55,210 bases of DNA from Clostridiales bacterium (GTDB taxonomy: Bacteria > Bacillota > Sulfobacillia > Sulfobacillales > Sulfobacillaceae): positions 1-55,210 of the forward strand of contig DAHXNH010000366.1 of NCBI GenBank assembly GCA_027365485.1, read 5' to 3'. Below are positions 3,892 through 36,849 of the stretch, piece after piece (position 1 is the first letter of the stretch; every line of letters starts with the position of its first letter). The notes beneath the pieces were generated by a model. That model did no database searches, was not told where the DNA came from, and was given only the letters and a program-made list of their open reading frames with translations. Position numbers and translations under genes: made by a program.

Positions 3892-3898
3892 TGTGGCG

Positions 3899-4993
3899 GT
3901 GGTCGAACCCCGAGATGAAATCTTAACCATGCCGGGCTATACTCCCGGACGTTCTATCGAGATGGTGGCCCGCGAATTGGGATTGAAAGACGTCATTAAA
4001 CTGGCTTCGAACGAAAGTTTGTGGGGAACCTCCGAACGAGTATTAGCTGCAGCCTCTAGGAGTCTTTTAAGCCTGTATCAATATCCCGAAGTCGTGCCCC
4101 TCCCTCTCGTTGAACTGCTGGCAGAGCGTTCTGGCTTTTCTCCTGACGAGATTTTGGTTGGCAATGGTGCTGATGAACTCTTGCGTCTCGTGGCCGCGGT
4201 CTATGTGAGACCTGGGCAGCGAGTGCTTTACCCCACCCCCAGTTTTGCCGCCTATGCCTATGGCGCAAGCTTAATGGGAGCTCAAGGCGTCGCGGTCTCG
4301 TTGCAAGCCAATGGCGCTATGGACCTCGAGGCGATGGCTGACTGCATCAACTCTAACACCGCGTTAATTTATCTCTGCAGTCCCAACAATCCTACTGGCG
4401 CAATCTTTCGGCAAAGAGAATGGGATCACTTTTTAGAGCGCGTTGAGGGTCGCGCCTTGATTGTGGTCGATCAAGCCTACCGTGAGTTCGTCGACGATAA
4501 CGACTATGCACGGATTGAAGATGCCATTCACCAGGGGGTGGCGGTGGCTATGGTGCGAACTTTTTCTAAGCTCTACGGCTTGGCCGGAGCCCGCGTGGGA
4601 TGGGCCGCTGCCCCGGCCCGCGTCATCGACCTCATGCACCGCGTGCGCGAACCTTTTTCTCTCAATGCGGTCGGCATTGCCGCTGCCACCGAGGCTCTTC
4701 GTGACTGCGAGTATTTCGACCACGTTCTCCAAGAAACGTTGATGCTGCGCCGTTGGCTCCAGACAGAATTGACGAGGCGAGGGCTGACCGTACTAGAAAG
4801 CCAAGCAAACTTTTTGACCTTCGCCTGCCCAACCGATGCCACCGAGATGGCCCGGCGTTTAGAACAACAAGGCATCATTATTCGCCCCACCACCAGCTTT
4901 GGACTTCCTCAGCACTGCCGGGTCTCCATTGCTCCCAAACCCATGCTAGAACGTTTCTTACACGGGTTAGACCTCATCCTGGCCGAAACCTAA
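3899..4993 (+). CDS. hisC: Histidinol-phosphate aminotransferase
   Basis: This is a fold-type I PLP aminotransferase of about 364 residues that transaminates imidazole-acetol phosphate with glutamate in histidine synthesis. Visible features are the N-terminal YTPGRS, the substrate segment LASNESLWGTS, the GNGADELLRL helix, SPNNPTGAIF, VVDQAYREF, and the PLP lysine in TFSKLYGLAGARVGW. The C-terminal SFGLPQHCRVSIA includes the conserved arginine that binds phosphate. Two in-frame GTG codons are possible starts, 3893 and 3899. The SD GAGGTGA ends at 3891, so only 3899 has normal spacing (7 nt). It is the first gene of the his cluster and has its own promoter. A 73-nt gap to hisZ holds a second promoter copy. 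Confidence 0.93.
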   Translation: MVEPRDEILTMPGYTPGRSIEMVARELGLKDVIKLASNESLWGTSERVLAAASRSLLSLYQYPEVVPLPLVELLAERSGFSPDEILVGNGADELLRLVAAVYVRPGQRVLYPTPSFAAYAYGASLMGAQGVAVSLQANGAMDLEAMADCINSNTALIYLCSPNNPTGAIFRQREWDHFLERVEGRALIVVDQAYREFVDDNDYARIEDAIHQGVAVAMVRTFSKLYGLAGARVGWAAAPARVIDLMHRVREPFSLNAVGIAAATEALRDCEYFDHVLQETLMLRRWLQTELTRRGLTVLESQANFLTFACPTDATEMARRLEQQGIIIRPTTSFGLPQHCRVSIAPKPMLERFLHGLDLILAET

Positions 4994-5000
4994 CCGAGTC

Positions 5001-5063
5001 TTGCCCATTTTGGAGGATGCATGCTACAATCCACTTTAGCACGATAGCGTATTAGCGAGGTGA
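5001..5063 (+). promoter_or_regulatory. Promoter and leader of hisZ (copy 2)
   Basis: A -35 TTGCCC (5001-5006), an 18-bp spacer and a -10 TACAAT (5025-5030, preceded by TGC as in an extended -10) lead into a leader that differs from the hisC copy at only a few positions and ends in GAGGTGA (5057-5063). It lies in the 73-nt hisC-hisZ gap. Confidence 0.7.
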
Positions 5064-5066
5064 CTT

Positions 5067-5885
5067 ATGAAGACTTGGATGGCTCAGGCCCGCGATCAGT
5101 TTCGACAAACCAGCGCCCTGATTGGACAGTTGGATCATAAGGGATTTACTCCCGTCTCCACCGCACCTACGCACGATACCGAGGTGCGCCGAGATCACAC
5201 CCTAGCCATCATCGAACGCTTGGCATCCTGGTCACCCGAGGCTTTTGAGTATCCGCTCAAGGTCTTTTCCACCGGTCCGGTCTTCGCCCACGGAACCTGG
5301 GCCGAAAGCCTGGACGTGGAAGTGCTGGAAGATCCCATGGTCGATCCCGAAGCTATCATTTTCGACCTTTTAACCCACCTCATCTCTGAACGCTTTATCC
5401 CTCCGAGCAACCGGGATCTGGTGTTCGTGGCCGGTCACTTGGGCCTCTTGCGGACGCTCCTCACCCAAAGCCAATGGCTGCCCGAGGACATCTCGGCATT
5501 GGAACGGAACTTTGCGGAAGGACGGTTTAGCCAAGCCGAACGTTTCGTCGCCAAACGCAATCCGAACCTCTTGCCACTGTTCCGGCCGACGCCGCCGAGA
5601 GCCGTTCTCTCGCTGTTGGACTCGCTCCCCGGTGCCAGCACAGGAAGCGATGTTAAGGCGTTGACGGCGGTTCTTCCCTCCGTGGTCGACCATGTGCCTT
5701 CGGTCCTCTGGGATTTGAGCCTCACCGGGGCCTTTGCCTACTACTCCGGCCTTGTGTTTGCGCTCTATGCCCGGGGCCAGGGAGAAGCCCTCATAAAAGG
5801 GGGACGCTTTTCGGTGCACTATCAAGAGCGCCACTGGCAAGGTGCGGGGTTCACCATCGTGTTGCCCGAATGGTTTGCTTCGTAA
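5067..5885 (+). CDS. hisZ: ATP phosphoribosyltransferase regulatory subunit HisZ
   Basis: HisZ is a histidyl-tRNA-synthetase-like protein without tRNA-charging activity that forms a complex with short HisG and is needed for its activity and histidine feedback. This protein is 272 residues, clearly shorter than typical HisZ (about 320-400), and divergent. Class II synthetase-like traces remain: a motif-2-like RRDHTLAIIERLASW, SLDVEVLEDPMVDPEAII in the position of the E-rich segment, and a C-terminal TGAFAYYSGLVFALYARG followed by ALIKGGRFSVHY, which matches the HisA-type YYTG/GGRYD region. The identification rests on these and on its place directly before a short hisG. ATG follows GAGGTGA by 3 nt. 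hisG starts 32 nt after the stop. Confidence 0.82.
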   Translation: MKTWMAQARDQFRQTSALIGQLDHKGFTPVSTAPTHDTEVRRDHTLAIIERLASWSPEAFEYPLKVFSTGPVFAHGTWAESLDVEVLEDPMVDPEAIIFDLLTHLISERFIPPSNRDLVFVAGHLGLLRTLLTQSQWLPEDISALERNFAEGRFSQAERFVAKRNPNLLPLFRPTPPRAVLSLLDSLPGASTGSDVKALTAVLPSVVDHVPSVLWDLSLTGAFAYYSGLVFALYARGQGEALIKGGRFSVHYQERHWQGAGFTIVLPEWFAS

Positions 5886-5917
5886 GTCCGCTGTCGCTCA
5901 GAGAAGGGGGTAGATGC

Positions 5918-6544
5918 ATGGAACACTTTCACGATATTCGCGTGGCTCTCGCTAAAGGCCGCATCTTAGAACAACTGGTTCCGCGCTGGACCAAGGCCCA
6001 TCTTCCTTGGCCGATCGAGCCAGAAAGCCGCCAATTGTGGTTTTCTGGCGATGACGCCGGCCCTGGCGCAATGATTGTGCGCGGCCCTGACGTACCTACG
6101 CTGGTCGCCCGCGGAGCCGCAGATCTCGGTATCGTCGGCACCGACCTCTTGGTGGAGCGAGGCATGCAAGGGGTCTTGGAAGTGGGCGACCTGGATCTGG
6201 CCGAATGTCGGGTCGTGTTAGCTGGCACCAGCGGCAAGCGCCCTGACGGACCGTTCCGAGTCGCTAGCAAGTACCAGAAAATCACCCGCGACTATCTCGA
6301 CCGCAATCATTTCCAGGCGGACATTGTCCGTCTCTCTGGCAGTCTCGAACTGGCCCCGCTGATTGGGTTGGCCGCCTACATTGTCGACATCGTGGAGACT
6401 GGAGAAACCCTGCGCCAGCATCGTCTCATCGAGATAGAGACCATCATGACGTCACATGCCTGTCTCATCGCCAATCCGGCGCATTGGCGAGCCAAGCCGG
6501 AGGTCGTCACCATTCGCGATCGCCTGGTCCAGCACCTGGCCTGA
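5918..6544 (+). CDS. hisG: ATP phosphoribosyltransferase, short form
   Basis: HisG joins ATP and PRPP to give phosphoribosyl-ATP, the first step of histidine synthesis. The 208-residue protein is the short form that lacks the C-terminal regulatory domain, consistent with hisZ next door. Visible motifs are IRVALAKGRILEQL at the N-terminus, GADLGIVGTDLLVERG, and the C-terminal LIGLAAYIVDIVETGETLRQH, which carries the PRPP-binding loop region. The open frame reaches back to 5870 inside hisZ, but ATG at 5918 has GAAGGGGG 7 nt upstream and begins exactly at the conserved N-terminus. A 110-nt gap follows before hisD. Confidence 0.95.
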   Translation: MEHFHDIRVALAKGRILEQLVPRWTKAHLPWPIEPESRQLWFSGDDAGPGAMIVRGPDVPTLVARGAADLGIVGTDLLVERGMQGVLEVGDLDLAECRVVLAGTSGKRPDGPFRVASKYQKITRDYLDRNHFQADIVRLSGSLELAPLIGLAAYIVDIVETGETLRQHRLIEIETIMTSHACLIANPAHWRAKPEVVTIRDRLVQHLA

Positions 6545-6654
6545 CTAGGTTTTGTTCTTTTCCGCAGTCGTTTGCTCTATTTTGACACAGATATGTTTGC
6601 TTGGTTGCTTGGTTGGCCGACGTGGACTACCTACTCATAAAGGAGGACGACCCC

Positions 6655-7851
6655 TTGACCGATGTCCTTGAAATTCTTCGCCGCGTTCGCGAAGGCCGGG
6701 AACGCGCTGTGGTCGAGTATAACCTTATCTTCGATCAGGTAAGCATGACGCCTCACGACTTGGTCTACGATCCCTTCACGGTCGAGGTGGGGCTCCCCTC
6801 TCCTGCGATCCGGGAGGCCCTAGACGTGGCCATCGCCCGCATTCGCCGTTTTCATCGCGCGACCCGTCCCGCAGAAACCACGCAATTTGACGCCGACAAT
6901 GGTCTTGGCCTCAGTGAGAGGTGGATTGCTTTGGGTCGGGTCGGAGTCTATGCGCCTAACGGCGGTTATCCTCTAGTTTCCAGTCTTTTGATGACCGCTA
7001 TTCCTGCTCAAGAAGCGGGGGTAGAAGACATCGTGGTCGCCATTTCACCGCGCGGCAACTCCCGTACCCATCCGGTATGGAACTATGCCCTGAAACAGTT
7101 GGGTTGCCATCAAGTGCTGGCCGCTGGCGGGGCTCAGGCGATGGCGGCGCTGGCTTACGGAATCGACGGGCTGAAGCCCGTGGATCTGATTGCAGGCCCC
7201 GGCAACCGCTACGTAACCGCAGCCAAACAAGCCTTATCCGCCGAAGGAGTCGTCGGTATCGACCTCTTGGCCGGTCCTTCGGAAGTGCTCATCATCGCCG
7301 ATGGCAGTGCCCACCCCGAATTCGTTGCCTACGACCTGTTGTCCCAAGCCGAGCACGCCGAAGATGCCAGTGCGATTTTGCTCAGTTGGGATCAGGCATT
7401 ATTAACGGCAGTCGAAACGCTGACCCAAAACGCCCGAGCGGCTGACCCCAATCGTGCTCTCGGCCGCATCCGCTTCGAGCTCGTGGCCGATCCCGAGTCG
7501 GCAGTGGATCGACTGAACCAGATTGCGCCTGAACACGCCGGATTGGTTGGTGCCGATGCCGAAGCTCTGGCACCTAAGGTGCGCACAGCCGGAGCGCTGT
7601 TCATTGGAGCCATGGCTGGTCAAGCGTTGGGCGACTATGTGGCTGGACCCAGCCACGTCCTCCCCACAGGCGGCACCGGCCGATTTCTCTCGGGCCTTTC
7701 CACCCGGACGTTTATGCGCCGGATGTCTGTCATCGAAGCGCGCGGCCAATTGCGCTCCGATCTGCTCGACCACGGTGCGACTCTCGCGGAATTGGAAGGT
7801 CTTCGCTTTCATCAGCAGTCGCTCTTGATACGAAAACCTCCAATCGGTTAG
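6655..7851 (+). CDS. hisD: Histidinol dehydrogenase
   Basis: HisD oxidises histidinol to histidine with two NAD and a zinc ion, the last two steps of the pathway. Motifs: RVGVYAPNGGYPLVSSLLM, ALAYGIDGLKPVDLIAGPGNRYVTAAK, the zinc-site segment SQAEHAEDASAIL, and QIAPEHAGLV with the catalytic Glu-His pair. The frame is open to 6601, but TTG at 6655 has AAGGAGG 8 nt upstream, giving 398 residues (family about 430; the shortening is at the N-terminus). The 110-nt gap after hisG contains a perfect TTGACA at 6582-6587 without an obvious -10, so an internal promoter is possible but unproven. Confidence 0.95.
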   Translation: MTDVLEILRRVREGRERAVVEYNLIFDQVSMTPHDLVYDPFTVEVGLPSPAIREALDVAIARIRRFHRATRPAETTQFDADNGLGLSERWIALGRVGVYAPNGGYPLVSSLLMTAIPAQEAGVEDIVVAISPRGNSRTHPVWNYALKQLGCHQVLAAGGAQAMAALAYGIDGLKPVDLIAGPGNRYVTAAKQALSAEGVVGIDLLAGPSEVLIIADGSAHPEFVAYDLLSQAEHAEDASAILLSWDQALLTAVETLTQNARAADPNRALGRIRFELVADPESAVDRLNQIAPEHAGLVGADAEALAPKVRTAGALFIGAMAGQALGDYVAGPSHVLPTGGTGRFLSGLSTRTFMRRMSVIEARGQLRSDLLDHGATLAELEGLRFHQQSLLIRKPPIG

Positions 7852-7925
7852 CCCCCGGCCGTTGGCTGATTGGCTGGACAGCATCTTCTCGCCCCAAGGT
7901 TGAGATTTTTAAAGGAGGATAGCTT

Positions 7926-8525
7926 ATGAGTACCCGTCGAAGCCATCGCGTGAAGCGCACCACCCGCGAAACCGACATCACCCTGACGCTTGACCTGGAT
8001 GGTCCGCTCGCTGATCCCCAGATTAACACCGGCCTGCCTTTATTTGATCATTTCCTCTCTGCCTTCGCTCAGCACAGTGGCTACGGCATGGATCTTAAGG
8101 CCACGGGCGATCTAGCCGTCGATCCCCATCATTTGGTCGAAGATGTCGGCATCGTTCTTGGCGATGCGCTTCAGGTTGCTCTCGGTGACCGTCGAGGGAT
8201 CCAACGCTTTGGACAGCGTTATTTGCCCATGGATGAAGCTCTAGTCTTAGTGGTTTTAGACATCTCAGGAAGAGGCCAGTTGTTCTGGTCTGGCCCCTTT
8301 CCCGACCGCCCGATCAACAATGTGGCGAGTGAAGTCTGGCCCGAATTCTTTAAGGGACTGGCGCAGCACGGCGGCCTTACGCTTCATCTCATTTGTCAAT
8401 TCGGAACCAATGCCCATCATGTTTACGAAGCTGCCTTCAAGGGACTGGGTCGGGCTTTAGCCGAGGCCACCCACAGCACCGGATCGGACGATATTCCCTC
8501 GACGAAAGGTTCGCTTACGGTTTGA
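7926..8525 (+). CDS. hisB: Imidazoleglycerol-phosphate dehydratase
   Basis: This 199-residue enzyme is the monofunctional Bacillota-type HisB that dehydrates imidazole glycerol phosphate to imidazole acetol phosphate using manganese. The duplicated metal motifs are present: the N-terminal R.TKET-like TRETDITL, the first DHFLSAFAQHSG, DPHHLVEDVGIVLG, then the second-half GTNAHHVYEAAFKGLGRAL. The C-terminus ends DIPSTKGSL, the usual HisB ending. ATG at 7926 has AAAGGAGG upstream. There is a 29-nt gap to hisH, whose leader again contains TTTTTAAAGGAG-like sequence. Confidence 0.96.
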   Translation: MSTRRSHRVKRTTRETDITLTLDLDGPLADPQINTGLPLFDHFLSAFAQHSGYGMDLKATGDLAVDPHHLVEDVGIVLGDALQVALGDRRGIQRFGQRYLPMDEALVLVVLDISGRGQLFWSGPFPDRPINNVASEVWPEFFKGLAQHGGLTLHLICQFGTNAHHVYEAAFKGLGRALAEATHSTGSDDIPSTKGSLTV

Positions 8526-8554
8526 GCGTTCTGAATTTTTAAAGGAGTGAAGTC

Positions 8555-9166
8555 ATGCACGTTGCCATTGTCGATTATGGGATGGGCAATTTAGGAAGCC
8601 TGGAGGCGATGGCCCACCGCCTCGATCTCGACCCCTTACTCTGGCGCCAGGGGTCTTTGCCCAAGGGGGCGGACTGGGTGATCTTCCCCGGAGTAGGCTC
8701 GTTGTTAAACGCCACTCATGAGCTCTCCCAGCGCGGGTTGGCAGCGCCCTTAGAACAGGCTAAGCAGGACGGTGTGCCCATCTTAGGGATTTGCCTCGGA
8801 TTGCAGCTTTTGTTTGAATCGGGAGACGAAGGCGGGCGAGGGCTCGGTTGGTTCGAAGGTACCGTCCCCCGCCTCCAGGCCGCTCGCACCCCCCACATGG
8901 GCTGGAACACCGTCCGGTCGACCACGCCGAATCCGCTTTTGGACAGCGACCCAAACCCTGCTGCTCCTGCCTATTACTTCGTTCACAGCTATGTCGTCCG
9001 GCCCCGTCATGCCGATCTCACCCTCGGGGAAACCACCTATGCTAACGAAACCTTTACCAGTGTCGTGAAGGACCGAGCCGTGGTCGGCGTCCAGTTTCAC
9101 CCAGAACTGAGCGGCAGCGCAGGGCGTCGTTTCATCCAGTCCTTCATCCGTCAGGTCGTCGCATGA
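8555..9166 (+). CDS. hisH: Imidazole glycerol phosphate synthase, glutaminase subunit
   Basis: HisH hydrolyses glutamine and channels ammonia to HisF. It is a class I glutamine amidotransferase of 203 residues. Visible are the N-terminal VAIVDYGMGNLGSL, the oxyanion segment VIFPGVGS, the nucleophile elbow GVPILGICLGLQLLFES with the catalytic Cys, PHMGWNTV, YYFVHSYVV, and VVGVQFHPELSG with the catalytic His and Glu. ATG has AAAGGAG 7 nt upstream. The stop overlaps the hisA start in an ATGA, so the two are translationally coupled. Confidence 0.97.
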   Translation: MHVAIVDYGMGNLGSLEAMAHRLDLDPLLWRQGSLPKGADWVIFPGVGSLLNATHELSQRGLAAPLEQAKQDGVPILGICLGLQLLFESGDEGGRGLGWFEGTVPRLQAARTPHMGWNTVRSTTPNPLLDSDPNPAAPAYYFVHSYVVRPRHADLTLGETTYANETFTSVVKDRAVVGVQFHPELSGSAGRRFIQSFIRQVVA

Positions 9167-9879
9167 GCGCGATTGAAGTCTGGCCAGCCATCGATCTGCT
9201 GCAAGGAGCACCTACCCGACTCTATCAAGGATCTTTCGATCACCCGACCGCCTACGCTCGTACTGCGTCCTATCTCCTCGCTTACCTCCGGGAGATAGGC
9301 TGCCCGCGCCTGCACTTGGTGGATCTCAGCGGCGCCCAAAGCGGTCAATTCAGCGTCTGGGACACCTTGGCTGAAGCAGCCCATCTGGGTTTTTTAGTCG
9401 AGGTGGGAGGAGGATTTCGCGACTTCGAGGCCATTGCTCGAGCCTTGGCTGAGGGAGCTAGCCATGTCGTCTTAGGCACAAAGCTCATCACCTCGCGCTC
9501 CTTTGCTGAAGAGGTGCTGACCCGATTTGGCCCGGAGCGTATCGTCGTCGGCCTGGATGTCTTAGATCATCGCGCCCGCATCCACGGCTGGACAGAGCCC
9601 GGCCCCGATGCAAAAGCCTCCTGGCAATCGTTGAACCGCCTGGGGTATGATCGCCTCAACGTCACCGATATTCAGCGCGACGGCAGTTTAGCGGGGATTC
9701 GCCCTGGTTTTTGGCAAGCCTGGGGTACTCTTCCCGGCAATCTCTGCGCCGGTGGAGGCGTCGGCTCCCTGAACGACCTCGAAATGTTGGCCCAGTGCCA
9801 CCTTAGCCGCGCGGTGGTGGGCAAGGCCTGGCTGGAAGGCATCATTGATCTCACCACCATTGACTGGGAGGAACCATAA
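9163..9879 (+). CDS. hisA: ProFAR isomerase
   Basis: HisA is the (beta-alpha)8-barrel isomerase that opens the ribose of N'-formimino-AICAR ribonucleotide. The 238-residue protein shows VWPAIDLLQGAPTRLYQG with the catalytic Asp in the first strand, LHLVDLSGAQSG, EVGGGFRDFEAI, IVVGLDVLDHRARIHGW, and the second-half LNVTDIQRDGSLAG with the second catalytic Asp. The phosphate-binding glycines are in LCAGGGVGSLNDL. It starts within the last codon of hisH (ATGA overlap) and its stop overlaps the hisF ATG by one base, so the three genes form one translational unit. Confidence 0.95.
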   Translation: MSAIEVWPAIDLLQGAPTRLYQGSFDHPTAYARTASYLLAYLREIGCPRLHLVDLSGAQSGQFSVWDTLAEAAHLGFLVEVGGGFRDFEAIARALAEGASHVVLGTKLITSRSFAEEVLTRFGPERIVVGLDVLDHRARIHGWTEPGPDAKASWQSLNRLGYDRLNVTDIQRDGSLAGIRPGFWQAWGTLPGNLCAGGGVGSLNDLEMLAQCHLSRAVVGKAWLEGIIDLTTIDWEEP

Positions 9880-10637
9880 TGTATCTTCCACGCATCATTC
9901 CCTGTCTTGATGTGCGCCATGGGCGCGTAGTCAAAGGCGTGAACTTTCTCGATCTGTCGGATAACGGGGACCCGGTGGAACTGGCCGAACGCTATGCCGC
10001 CACCGGAGCCGACGAATTGGTATGGCTCGATATCGTGGCCACCGTAGAAGACCTCGAACTGGCTACCGACCTCATTCGCCGCGCTCGGCAAGGCGTCGAT
10101 ATTCCGCTCACTGTGGGGGGCGGCATTCGCACCGTAGGTCAGGTGGGGGCCTTGCTGGATGCCGGGGCAGACAAAGTCTCGATTAACAGCCAAGCTCTGG
10201 CTGAACCGGACTTGATCGGTCGCGTGGCTAAACGCTGGGGCAGCCAATGCATGGTGGTGGCTATCGATGCCCAACGGGACGGCGATCACTGGCAAGTATA
10301 TAGCCACGGCGGTCGATCGCGGACCGATTGGGAATTAGGGGCTTGGCTGAAACGCGCTGAACAAGAAGGTGCAGGAGAATTCCTTTTAACCAGCATGGAC
10401 GCCGATGGCACTCGCCGGGGCTACGACTTACCCATGTTATCGTTCGCCCGCAGTCTGATCCACCGCCCCCAGATCGCCTCGGGCGGTGCCGGCAGCATTG
10501 ACGACTTGGAGAATGCCATCCGCCACGGTGAAGATGCGCTGTTAATCGCCTCGATTTTGCACCAGGGCGATACCGATTTACCTCATATTAAAGAGGCACT
10601 AATCCAACGGGGGGTAGCAGTGAGATGGCCGATTTAA
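9879..10637 (+). CDS. hisF: Imidazole glycerol phosphate synthase, cyclase subunit
   Basis: HisF is the (beta-alpha)8 barrel that uses ammonia from HisH to make imidazole glycerol phosphate and AICAR, the latter feeding purine synthesis. The 252-residue protein has the first-strand [18 protein letters not shown] with catalytic Asp11, [58 protein letters not shown] with the second catalytic Asp, and [16 protein letters not shown]. The start codon shares one base with the hisA stop. Its 3' end overlaps hisIE by 13 nt. Confidence 0.97.
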
Positions 10638-11257
10638 TCGAAGACGGACGACAGCTTTTTCCGGTAGTGGTTCAAGATATCAAGACGGGCCGGGTGCTGA
10701 TGTTGGCCTTCGCTAATGACGAAGCCTTGGCAAAGACCCGCGAGACCCATCTCGCCCATTTTTACTCGCGTAGTAGAAAGACCCTCTGGCAGAAGGGCGA
10801 GACCTCGGGCCACATCCTCCCAGTCGATGAAGTCCTGGTCGACTGCGATCACGACAGCTACCTCTACCTAGCTCAACCGGTGCATCCTGTCTGCCACCGC
10901 AACACTCCCGGATGCTTTGATCAGGCCCCCGGTGAGTTTGCCGATTCCGGCCAAATTCTCAATGCCCTCGCCGGGTGGATTCATGAGCGCGCCGTCGGCC
11001 CCGAGGATCCCAGTTCCTATACCCAGCGTTTGTTGAAAGCTACCCCGGATCGGATCTTGAAAAAGATCGCTGAAGAGTCGGGCGAAGTCATCATTGCGGC
11101 TCTGACCCCGGGCGAGAGCCACAGTCAGGAACTCATCTGGGAAAGCGCCGATCTTCTCTTTCATCTGGCCTTGGTCTGGGAGAAATTCGGCATCCATCCC
11201 GATCAAGTAGCTCGAGAACTCGAACGACGACATCGTCCGAGTCCGGCCTCGAACTAG
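10625..11257 (+). CDS. hisI: Bifunctional phosphoribosyl-AMP cyclohydrolase / phosphoribosyl-ATP pyrophosphohydrolase
   Basis: This is a HisIE fusion of 210 residues catalysing steps 2 and 3 of the pathway. The cyclohydrolase half (about 1-110) has FYSRSRKTLWQKGETSGH and the zinc/magnesium site DCDHDSYLYLA, followed by VCHRNTPGCF carrying two more Cys. The pyrophosphohydrolase half (about 115-205) has SYTQRLLKATPDRILKKI and EESGEVIIAAL with LIWESADLLFHLALVW, an all-alpha NTP-PPase fold. It overlaps hisF by 13 nt and is the last his gene. The following gene starts 72 nt later and has its own possible promoter. Confidence 0.95.
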   Translation: MADLIEDGRQLFPVVVQDIKTGRVLMLAFANDEALAKTRETHLAHFYSRSRKTLWQKGETSGHILPVDEVLVDCDHDSYLYLAQPVHPVCHRNTPGCFDQAPGEFADSGQILNALAGWIHERAVGPEDPSSYTQRLLKATPDRILKKIAEESGEVIIAALTPGESHSQELIWESADLLFHLALVWEKFGIHPDQVARELERRHRPSPASN

Positions 11258-29838: not shown

Positions 29839-32310
29839 TCAATCCGCCTTTTGCCACAAGCGATAGTGCGCTTGCCACGAAATGCTCATGGCTGCCAAGG
29901 GAATTTCGGCTAATTGTTCTCGAGCCAACGCCAGTACTTGCCTCATGTCGCTGCCCCGAGGACGACGAATCCCCTTCCAGAGGGGCGTTCGCACTAGAAA
30001 CGAAAGCGCCCAGTCCGGATTGGGGAAGACCAGTGTGCCCTGGACCGCCTTCTCCTTTTCCAGCATAAATCCCAGCGACTGGGCTAGCGCGGGCAGTGGA
30101 TTCTCGACAGGCCTAAGTGGTTCGTCTAGACTGACGCCCCAGTTTAGCCAAAACTCTGTCCACGCTTCAGGCCAGTGCCAGGCATCCGCTTCCGCCAAGG
30201 CCAATCGGCCCCTTAGACGCAGCACCCGGTGCAGTTCTTTGAGAACCGTTCGGGCACTGCCATCGTAGAGAAAATACGCTCCCAAAGCCAAATCGACCGT
30301 TTCGGATACCACCGGTAAATCGCTGGCCTCGGCGACTTGGCAATGAACCCAAGTCCATTCCGGCTGAAGCCGACGAAACGCCTTGGCTAATTGCACCGCG
30401 GAGCGGTCGGTTACCAAATACTGACCCTTCGCGCCCACCCTCCAAATCATTTCGCCGTCCAGCGCTAAGCGGCCGCTGCCCGCTCCGACTTCTACCACCG
30501 CTTGGCCCGGATCGGGGTCGATCCAAGCGATAAACCGACGGGCTTCGTTCTCGCCATCGAGGAATGTCCCGCTGTGCAAATCGTCGTACGTAGGGTCCAG
30601 CAAGGCCAGTTCTACCGATCCTTGAGACGGGTTCCATAGTGTGCGTCGGCCCACCCCGGTCAACACCAGGGCGCCGGACTCGGTGGGTAGGCGGAATTGT
30701 TTCATCTCCATCAGCCGATGGTCTGCCTTGACAATCGCCCCATCCAGTCCTGACCAATCGCTGTAGCCTGCCACACCATAGCTAAACCTCAGCGGAATGG
30801 GGCCCTCATCTTCCGCCCGCTCGAAGCTGGTTAACGATTCTGTCCAGTCTTTGGCTTGGTCTTCCGAAGCGCCGGCCCACACCACCAAGAATTCGTCGCC
30901 GCCGTAGCGAATGGCCGACATGCCCGGTTGAATACATTGGCGGATACGCGCCCCCGCTAATTGAAGCATCTGGTCTCCCTCGCTATGGCCGAACAAGTCG
31001 TTGACCGCCTTAAGGCCGTCCATATCCATAAAGATCACCACACCGTGTCCCGCAAGGTTCGAGGTTTGTGCTTCCCACGCCACCCTAGACATCAACCCGG
31101 TTAAGGTATCGATGGCAAAGGCGCTAGGCAAGTGGGTAAAGGGGATTAGATTGGTAACAATGATGACAGAATATGGCCGACCCTTTTTTTCTGCGCTAAA
31201 CACCGTGATTCGATGAACTGCTTCCCCGCCATCTTGTCGACTAATCCGAAAGTTTTGGAACTGAAAGCCTTGGGTCGCTGGGCTGATTTCGGGCCTAATA
31301 TTCCAAAGCCCCATCGCCGTGGCGGCAGGTTGACCCAAAACAGCATCGACCCCGATGTGTGAAAACCGTTCCGCGGCGCGATTCATGCCAGCGATTTTTC
31401 CCTCTTCATCCACGACAAAAATGGGGACCGGCAAGTCCGCATAGAGCAGATCCCCCATTTCCCGAGCATCCAAGCCCACAAATCCGTCATCTAGGCGAAA
31501 TCGTTCCCAACCCGGAGGGCAAAAGGCCTGCACCGCCTCCACCAGATCCTCGGGAACTGAATCCACCCGGAGCTTGGAGCGCCAGAACTCTGCCGATTCA
31601 GGCCGCCCAAACCCATAACCCTGCACCCAGTCGATCTTAAGTTCCCGAAGCCAGTCTGCCATCGTCAGGTCTTCGACCCCTTCCGCGATGACCAGGGCAT
31701 CGATCCGATGAGCCTCCTTAATCCAAGACTGGAGCGCCCCGACGTCGCCTGACTCGTGAGCCTCAACGATTAATGACCGATCCAATTTGACAAAGGCCGG
31801 TTTTAACCAAGCCATTCGTTCTAAATCTGCCATTCCCGTGCCCGCATCATCGAGCGCCATACGCACACCAAGCCCGCGCATTCTTTCGACTCCAGCAACG
31901 GCCAAGTCCCGGTACGTCTCAGGGCTCTCAACCAGTTCTAAAACCAGAGCGTCGCGCTGACGCCAGCGGGCCAGGATTACGCCAACACCGCCGGAAGGAC
32001 TAGAGGATAAGCTCAAATGATTGGGATGGATATTAAGGAACAACAACCCGGGTAAGGACCGCGCTTGGGCGAGGGCCGAGCGAATGGACAAGATGTCGAG
32101 GTCGCGACCGCGTCCCATGCGAATCGCCGTGTCAAACGCCGCCGTCGGAGACATGTCGCCGAATCGTGCGAGTCCTTCGAAGCCCACCACGCGGCCAGTG
32201 GCCAGATTCCACAGCGGTTGAAACACATGGTCCACGGCATCGCCCTCTAAGATTTTAGCTATTTTTTCAGGATTTTCATCGCTTTCGCAAGCCATGCTTT
32301 GTGTATCCAT
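29839..32310 (-). CDS. EAL-PAS-GGDEF-methyltransferase fusion protein
   Basis: This 823-residue cytoplasmic protein has four modules. The EAL domain (about 20-260) shows EGL at 45-47, Asn93, Glu125 in LELVES, Asp154-Asp155 in LDDAGTG, Lys175, Glu210 in AEGVED and Gln230 in QGYGFGRP, so its c-di-GMP phosphodiesterase residues are kept. A PAS-like domain follows (about 288-395, LPVPIFVVDEEGKIAGMN). The GGDEF domain (about 398-545) has DTLTGL, MDMDGLKAVND and an intact RYGGDEF at 468-474, so it could be a cyclase; the usual RxxD inhibitory site upstream is not present. The last 240 residues are a class I methyltransferase, with motif I VVEVGAGSG at 605-613. There is no membrane segment. The domain order and the methyltransferase tail are unusual. 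ATG at 32310 has GGGGTGA upstream. Confidence 0.85.
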   Translation of the reverse strand: MDTQSMACESDENPEKIAKILEGDAVDHVFQPLWNLATGRVVGFEGLARFGDMSPTAAFDTAIRMGRGRDLDILSIRSALAQARSLPGLLFLNIHPNHLSLSSSPSGGVGVILARWRQRDALVLELVESPETYRDLAVAGVERMRGLGVRMALDDAGTGMADLERMAWLKPAFVKLDRSLIVEAHESGDVGALQSWIKEAHRIDALVIAEGVEDLTMADWLRELKIDWVQGYGFGRPESAEFWRSKLRVDSVPEDLVEAVQAFCPPGWERFRLDDGFVGLDAREMGDLLYADLPVPIFVVDEEGKIAGMNRAAERFSHIGVDAVLGQPAATAMGLWNIRPEISPATQGFQFQNFRISRQDGGEAVHRITVFSAEKKGRPYSVIIVTNLIPFTHLPSAFAIDTLTGLMSRVAWEAQTSNLAGHGVVIFMDMDGLKAVNDLFGHSEGDQMLQLAGARIRQCIQPGMSAIRYGGDEFLVVWAGASEDQAKDWTESLTSFERAEDEGPIPLRFSYGVAGYSDWSGLDGAIVKADHRLMEMKQFRLPTESGALVLTGVGRRTLWNPSQGSVELALLDPTYDDLHSGTFLDGENEARRFIAWIDPDPGQAVVEVGAGSGRLALDGEMIWRVGAKGQYLVTDRSAVQLAKAFRRLQPEWTWVHCQVAEASDLPVVSETVDLALGAYFLYDGSARTVLKELHRVLRLRGRLALAEADAWHWPEAWTEFWLNWGVSLDEPLRPVENPLPALAQSLGFMLEKEKAVQGTLVFPNPDWALSFLVRTPLWKGIRRPRGSDMRQVLALAREQLAEIPLAAMSISWQAHYRLWQKAD

Positions 32311-34773: not shown

Positions 34774-36849
34774 CTATTTTAGGTTCAGGTACTGCAGATT
34801 GTAAAAGTTTCCGAAAGCACCGATGTCGGGATTGGGATCGACATTTTGCACACCCGGCTGAACCAGATAGTTGTCATCTTCGTAGTTCAGCGGCACGATG
34901 TAACCTGACGCCATTAGCGTGTTGGAAATTTTGGCTGCCAGTTTTAGGGCTTGTTGGCCGGTAGAACTCCAGAGCACGCCGGTCCAGGACCAGATGTCGT
35001 ATTGTAATTTCGGCTCATGAGTCATCACGTACGCCTGATCAACTAAACCGAGGCTGGCATCGCCTGGGCTGGAAACATACGTGCCCACCCATTTCCAGAA
35101 GCTGACCCAGTCGGCGTGCTTTTCCGCGGCCGTTTTAGCAGTCTTGTAACTGGCTACGTAGTTGTTCAAGGTTTGGTCGAGAGTCAGACTGCCTGGGCCA
35201 AGGCCTGAGTTGTTGTCGAAGAAGTCCGCAGGCTGCTTCTTCCAAAACGCCATAATGACGGGAATCGCCTTTTTTGCGGCGGAGATAATCGGTTGCCACT
35301 GCGAAATTTGGACGCCTTCTTGCGCATTGCTGGGGTTGCCCCATGCCTTGACTTCTTGGCGATCATAGGTGTAGAAAAACCAATTTTCGGCATGATCACG
35401 GTATGATTGCGGCCCAATCGCACCGCTAGCCCACTCCGTCCCCCATTGGTTAATCGACAGGGGGTAGGAACCGGGATCCGTACCGGCCCAGTTTTCACCG
35501 CCAGAAGCGATGTCATAGCCGGGAAGAATGCCTTTGAGCATGCCGTCTGTGCTGAGTTCTCCCCAAATCGTTGGGTTCTCCACCTGGATCGTAAACTTTA
35601 CGCCGAGATTTTGTTTCAGTTCCGCGGCGACAGCCTCAGCCATGGGCACATACTGAGGATTACTGCCTGTCCCGGTGCTGGTATTGTGGTATACAGATAA
35701 AGGGTAGGCATACCTTTACCATTGGGATATCCGGCCTTGGCTAGAAGTCGCCTTGCGGCGCTTACATTGAAGGCATAGGGGTTGTGCTCGTATTTGGCCG
35801 GCGGCCAATCCGGGATCGCCGGAATCGAAGTCGCGCTAACCAACCCACTTTCGGCTTCGGCAGCGATGGGCTGGCGGTCGATCGCCATGGCGATGGCCTC
35901 ACGGACCAGCTTGTTGTTGAGCGGTGAGGGATCGACCAACTTGTCCCACTCCAAGTAGTTGATGTCGCCCACCGGAGTCTTCTGCAATTAATTCTTCATG
36001 TGCCCTTTGGCGTAGACGTAGTCTGCCGCCGAGGTAACCAACGCCGTGCTCAGCGAGTGTCCCAAGTAGTCTTCCACCGGAACGGTTGGAGTCGGAATCA
36101 CATCAATTTGGTTGACATTGCCAACATTATATTCACCTGGAACTCCGACGTAGTCCTTATTCCAAGTCATCTTGATCTCGCCGTTGATAGTGAAGGACGA
36201 GACGACGTAGGGCCCATTGCCGACGAAGTTCTGCGGCAAGTACCAAGTCGTCGGATGCTCCGTCACCGATGGCGGATAAAGCGGCATCGAGGAGCTGGTG
36301 GTCAAAAACGGCAAAATATCGAGCGGTGCTACCAGATGCATCTGAAGCGTATAGTTGTTGATGACTTTCAAACCTACTTCAGAGGCAGGCACTGCCTCAC
36401 CATGATAAGCCCAGGCGTTGGCCACCTGACCCATGGCACCCGACCACAGAGCGCCGGTACTATCTTGCGGCGAAGCCAGCCGCGTCCAGGCATAGTAAAA
36501 GTCCTGAGCGGTCACCGGTTGGCCGTTGGACCAGCGGGCATTATGCCTTAAGTAAAAGGTCCAGACCGTATCTCCATTGCTGGCCTTCCACCCCGACGCC
36601 ACTTTTTTTTCAATTCAGCCCTGCTGATTATAGCCGACCAGACCTTCAAACAAGGCGTCCGCGTCAAGTAATTGTTGCGGTCCCCATTGGGCTGGGTCCA
36701 GGGTAGAGGCCGCTGGTTCCGGAATGGTCACGGTTCCCGAGGCCGCCATCGCCGTACCAGGGTTCACCAAGGTCATAAGCCCCATACTACCCGTCATCGC
36801 TAACGCGATGGCCGCAGAAAAAAAGTCGTCTAGATTTCATCGGTTTCAT
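34774..36849 (-). pseudogene. Broken family 5 (peptide) substrate-binding protein gene
   Basis: Four same-strand pieces form one DppA/OppA-type periplasmic-binding lipoprotein-like protein. The start (ATG at 36849 or 36840) is followed by a signal peptide split by one extra T in a run of seven (near 36823). Then come TVTIPEPAASTLDPAQWG and ALFEGLVGYN, followed by an in-frame TGA near 36613-36615, and WTFYLRHNARWSNGQPVTAQDFYYAW, which is diagnostic. Next is an in-frame TAA at 35988-35990, then DKLVREAIAMAIDR-like sequence, a frameshift near 35690, and the C-terminal half to 34774 (PMAEAVAAELKQNLGVKF, YDIASGGENW). Two nonsense codons and two shifts make it non-functional. No ABC permease genes are adjacent. 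Confidence 0.85.

Follow-up and report, generated by a model that had tools for sequence, protein, structure and literature searches.

A methyltransferase domain fused to EAL, PAS and GGDEF domains in bacteria of the class containing Sulfobacillus

Enzymes of cyclic di-GMP (c-di-GMP) turnover usually work remotely, via receptors. A gene in a 55,210-nucleotide stretch of draft genome (contig DAHXNH010000366.1, positions 1 to 55,210, referred to here as the window) raises the question of what a methyltransferase is doing at the end of a chain that also carries EAL, PAS and GGDEF domains. A reading made from the sequence alone had placed this gene at 29,839 to 32,310 and given its product 823 residues, both of which are correct; the strand, which that reading left out, is minus. 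The frame running from 32310 to 29839 has 823 codons from ATG to stop without interruption, and the plus-strand reading of the same interval contains stops throughout. The gene and its parts are as follows.

29839..32310, minus strand: whole gene, 823 amino acids, EAL-PAS-GGDEF-methyltransferase, from the open reading frame and its translation, with a syntenic orthologue (L119) in genome G001
31600..32250, minus strand: EAL domain, residues 21-237, with the EGL variant of the EAL motif, Pfam PF00563
31126..31455, minus strand: PAS domain, residues ~286-395 (Pfam match 286-328), PF00989
30697..31116, minus strand: GGDEF domain, residues 399-538, PF00990, aligning to solved diguanylate cyclases
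30535..30690, minus strand: linker, residues 541-592, with the beta-hairpin element LVLTGVGRR (548-556), from alignment A3 and models
29842..30534, minus strand: class I SAM-dependent methyltransferase domain, residues 593-823, from Pfam, AlphaFold and PDB matches

A Pfam search of the 823-residue product, as the sequence-only reading had proposed, placed all four of its domains above the cut-offs: EAL at residues 21-237 (3.7e-35; 121.9 bits against a cut-off of 31.3), PAS at 286-328 (31.3 bits against 22.6), GGDEF at 399-538 (6.3e-22; 78.5 bits against 23.8) and, for the C-terminal domain, Methyltransf_25 at 605-701 (33.3 bits against 27) and Methyltransf_11 at 607-704 (30.9 bits against 21.2). 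The catalytic residues and motifs listed in that reading are each present. The EAL active-site set is complete (E45 of EGL, N93, E125, D154, D155, K175, E210 and Q230, with E210 inside AEGVED, which starts at 209), and the five EAL-type relatives that are complete share all eight residues with the window protein, while five of the eight are visible in the contig-edge copy L015. EGL is likewise found in Lmo0131, a Listeria EAL protein of solved structure. In the GGDEF domain, RYGGDEF at 468-474 and DMDGLKAVND are both intact, and the RxxD I-site is absent, with QPGM at that position. The window protein therefore has the sequence features expected of an EAL phosphodiesterase (the PF00563 profile and the eight residues) and of a GGDEF diguanylate cyclase (the PF00990 profile, GG[DE]EF and DxDxxKxxND); the NCBIfam equivalog cut-offs for GGDEF/EAL enzymes are not reached by it. 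In the C-terminal domain motif I is EVGAGSG at 607-613 and the acidic D635 ends strand 2. At the position before LP, where an acidic residue is the usual adenine contact, most members of the family described below have P or A and the window protein has E.

The four-domain fusion is real and is maintained by selection. In a separate metagenome-assembled genome (MAG) of the same genus, G001, the gene (94% identity) has the same genes on either side, and the same domain order is found in genera g10 (51% identity) and g6 (four genomes, 36-40%). The window gene and its G001 orthologue gave an overall dN/dS (NG86) of 0.19, with per-domain values in this g1 pair of 0.20 for EAL, 0.18 for PAS, 0.27 for GGDEF and 0.22 for both the methyltransferase core and the C-terminus; other pairs gave 0.08-0.15 for GGDEF and the methyltransferase core. 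The syntenic orthologue, the low dN/dS and the confident fold of the C-terminal domain place the four-domain gene beyond chance. An assembly join or frameshift between the GGDEF and C-terminal parts, which the sequence-only reading had named as its possible undoing, was rejected because the gene and its neighbours are matched in G001. Although the genome is a 440-contig draft and a relative, L129 of G041, changes frame at the GGDEF motif, the chance that the gene is a chimeric assembly, a frameshift join or a random C-terminal motif is negligible, since an independent MAG has the full-length gene at the matching place, orthologues exist in g6 and g10 and purifying selection is continuous.

The C-terminal part was modelled with AlphaFold from residues 530-823 and a 59-row family alignment. 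The predicted structure is a confident methyltransferase fold (pLDDT 87.9, pTM 0.87) with seven strands in the canonical order, so that the methyltransferase match expected in residues 580-760 is provided both by Pfam (605-704) and by the model. With a seven-strand Rossmann fold, ExGxGxG and an acidic residue after strand 2, the domain has the features of class I SAM-dependent methyltransferases. Its PDB neighbours are small-molecule methyltransferases, YcgJ and TleD at Z about 21 and Coq5 and GtmA at Z about 20, and the CheR family is absent from the Pfam matches of the window protein up to E=1. The UbiE/MenG subfamily/equivalog cut-offs of NCBIfam were missed (37.1 bits against 216 and 33.4 against 158), so by that test the protein is no quinone methyltransferase. 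The model and its neighbours suggest that the domain is a genuine small-molecule enzyme of the UbiE/RebM/YcgJ-like kind.

The sequence-only reading had considered an attached methyltransferase unexpected. The arrangement holds, but it is not unique: the window gene belongs to the branch with EAL within a PAS-GGDEF-methyltransferase family specific to this lineage. A profile of the linker and methyltransferase (A1) was searched against 154 genomes of the class that contains the mineral-leaching genus Sulfobacillus, and strong matches came from families f1, f2, f19 and f40, a single genome having as many as 14 matches. After removal of duplicates there are 38 GGDEF-methyltransferase fusions, with PAS present where checked. 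EAL stands in front in seven of the 38, including L015, the g6 gene of G022, which ends at a contig edge with its EAL start on another contig. Besides the gene described here, the window genome contains another complete copy (L002) and two incomplete ones: L003, which lies at a contig edge, and the fragment L004, which contains a stop codon. In G002, an EAL-PAS protein without GGDEF and methyltransferase (L125, around 6305-7426; 44% identical over residues 20-390) stands alone, encoded upstream of the gene for a membrane-type cyclase. A scan by pattern through 84,980 species, which reaches close relatives only, found no fusion outside the class; its 31 loci are all in draft MAGs, mostly titled Bacillota and one Sulfobacillus sp. 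One locus titled Actinomycetes apparently belongs to G041, which is placed here in the same order; L129 (5666-6781) of G041 is a broken GGDEF-methyltransferase gene. Among 398 genomes sampled from the phylum, the strong matches beyond the window genome were to winged-helix methyltransferases only, and a plasmid search gave no record covering 80% of the window protein. As far as searched, the family is confined to the Sulfobacillus-containing class. In the literature searched, no GGDEF/EAL protein fused to a non-CheR methyltransferase was found, nor any published protein of EAL-PAS-GGDEF-methyltransferase order; searches for GGDEF-methyltransferase fusions gave only CheR/chemotaxis papers or irrelevant ones.

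Within this family, the distances of the GGDEF and methyltransferase domains are correlated (Mantel r 0.77; highest value in permutations 0.36), implying that the two domains were inherited together, and the EAL-bearing members form one clade (100/99) in the methyltransferase tree and the GGDEF tree alike. The nearest methyltransferase relatives are proteins of about 500 amino acids with a helical and winged-helix head where the fusions have GGDEF; the model of this head has a pLDDT of 87.5 and gave PadR/MarR-type winged-helix matches at modest scores (Z 6-7). In L058, L075 and L146-L148 the methyltransferase is related along its length to that of the fusions and is preceded by an LTxxGR element, whereas the head is helical and winged-helix instead of PAS-GGDEF. 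The ~500-residue family as a whole (L058, L059-L067, L073-L076, L082-L084 and L146-L149, from this class and, in a few cases, from elsewhere in the phylum) is laid out as a helical domain with a conserved HRPW motif, a winged helix and a UbiE-like methyltransferase; the head had no Pfam match in the two members scanned (L075 and L058). Most GGDEF-methyltransferase fusions have an LVLTGVGRR-type linker element resembling the wing (LTPxGR) of these proteins, and because an LTxxGR-like element precedes the methyltransferase in both kinds, the GGDEF fusion may retain a remnant of the wing. The L020/L132 clade was placed among the winged-helix methyltransferases, which would point to two independent GGDEF fusions; the case for these is borderline (AU p=0.044), one origin being compatible with the GGDEF tree.

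The window protein is probably a cytosolic one-component signalling enzyme. Its PAS domain would sense a ligand or redox state and set the dimer state of the GGDEF domain, which would make c-di-GMP, and of the EAL domain, which would degrade it. Because GGDEF sits where the relatives have their winged-helix head, methyltransferase activity would most likely be gated by the state of PAS/GGDEF, and methylation would be an output coupled to c-di-GMP turnover. That most members have a PAS/c-di-GMP module to which a small-molecule methyltransferase is tethered, and by which it is probably gated, is the explanation to which the sequences point, and we would put it a little short of an even chance. 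The link between c-di-GMP or PAS input and methylation suggested by the sequence-only reading gains support from the co-travelling of GGDEF and methyltransferase through about 38 genes. The GGDEF motif is intact in 35 of the 38 fusions, the methyltransferase motif I is canonical in 33 and both hold in 30. In three members (L081, L093 and L104) the GGDEF motif is gone while that of the methyltransferase is kept, as would be predicted were the methyltransferase the output.

The opposite loss, GGDEF kept and motif I altered, is found in four g6 EAL members and in L087, and bears on the main rival, that the methyltransferase fold is a SAM/SAH sensor tuning GGDEF/EAL, methylation status thereby setting c-di-GMP. 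The g6 members keep both GGDEF and EAL, their motif I of EVNAGRG retains the acidic residue and two glycines, and their methyltransferase domain is under strong constraint (dN/dS 0.09). This motif need not abolish SAM binding, and the g6 domain could bind SAM without catalysis. The expansion of paralogues, up to 14 profile matches in one genome, also resembles sensory diversification. However, the sensor explanation seems on balance unlikely given the canonical motif I of most fusions, its retention in the three members without a GGDEF motif, and the invariant W181, P187 and Q244 in the likely substrate-side part of alignment A2 of the PAS-GGDEF-methyltransferase members.

Gene neighbourhood gave no lead to the substrate, since no neighbour is conserved from one genus to another. 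The window gene is flanked by a PurU-like gene and an aldehyde dehydrogenase, and the g6 orthologues are divergent to a glycosyltransferase/phosphatase pair. In L121, L122 and L123 this adjoining glycosyltransferase and HAD phosphatase are sucrose-phosphate synthase/phosphatase-like by eye, and in L122 and L123 the EAL-type gene also converges on ftsY, next to smc. No SAM or c-di-GMP riboswitch was matched by Rfam in the window. Elsewhere in the window there is an apparent, ordinary histidine biosynthesis operon (3893-11257, plus strand) and, at 34774-36602 on the minus strand, what by eye is an oligopeptide-ABC-transporter-type substrate-binding protein, seemingly split over three consecutive frames (36602-35988, 35987-35616 and 35649-34774) by frameshifts, pseudogene formation or assembly error. 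The want of a neighbour conserved between genera would suit a second rival, in which the fusion merely co-localises or co-expresses two independent enzymes without allosteric coupling, as would the lack of any structural sign of coupling and the presence, nested in the fusion clade, of L077 and L078, which have the methyltransferase without a recognisable GGDEF. The long co-inheritance of the two domains and the rarity of their separation make such independence improbable. It is more improbable by far that the methyltransferase acts on the protein itself or its nucleotides (GTP, pGpG or c-di-GMP), to which the covalent linkage is the sole pointer, as the fold comes nearest to those of small-molecule, quinone and natural-product enzymes, with no free-nucleotide-methylating enzyme prominent among them.

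Returning to gating by the PAS/c-di-GMP module, the family has a metabolic-type enzyme covalently attached to cyclase and phosphodiesterase domains, an arrangement kept and multiplied in one bacterial class. If the coupling is true, c-di-GMP turnover would act on methylation (or SAM on c-di-GMP) directly and without a receptor, and methylation may be wired directly to c-di-GMP in uncultured Sulfobacillus-like bacteria. A broader and rather doubtful proposal is that GGDEF replaced the winged-helix head in what would be an expanded class of metabolic methyltransferases, specific to this lineage and gated by a second messenger, so that occupancy by c-di-GMP or GTP would directly switch metabolite methylation or a methylated cyclic dinucleotide would be made. 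Members whose GGDEF is dead or whose SAM motif is altered occur naturally and offer a way to tell in which direction control runs.

In function, the MapZ-CheR1 system of Pseudomonas aeruginosa comes closest: c-di-GMP controls a methyltransferase there (PMC7288161, PMC6370697), and the c-di-GMP adaptor MapZ inhibits the chemotaxis methyltransferase CheR1 (PMC7288161). Unlike the window protein, that system has no fusion, cyclase or phosphodiesterase; its PilZ adaptor is a separate protein, and the methyltransferase on which it acts is one for chemoreceptors. UbiE/MenG, RebM and YcgJ-type methyltransferases have the fold, motif I and strand order of the window domain, which differs from them in being fused to signalling domains. 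Bifunctional GGDEF/EAL enzymes with PAS, such as DosP and its relatives, share the catalytic domains, the PAS input and the conserved residues, whereas the window protein has EAL first, GGDEF third and an extra methyltransferase at the C-terminus. A methyltransferase and c-di-GMP domains are also joined in a single chain in the CheB-CheR-PAS-GGDEF-EAL hybrids, where the methyltransferase is CheR-type, N-terminal and chemotaxis-linked; that of the window protein is instead a C-terminal Methyltransf_25/11 domain.
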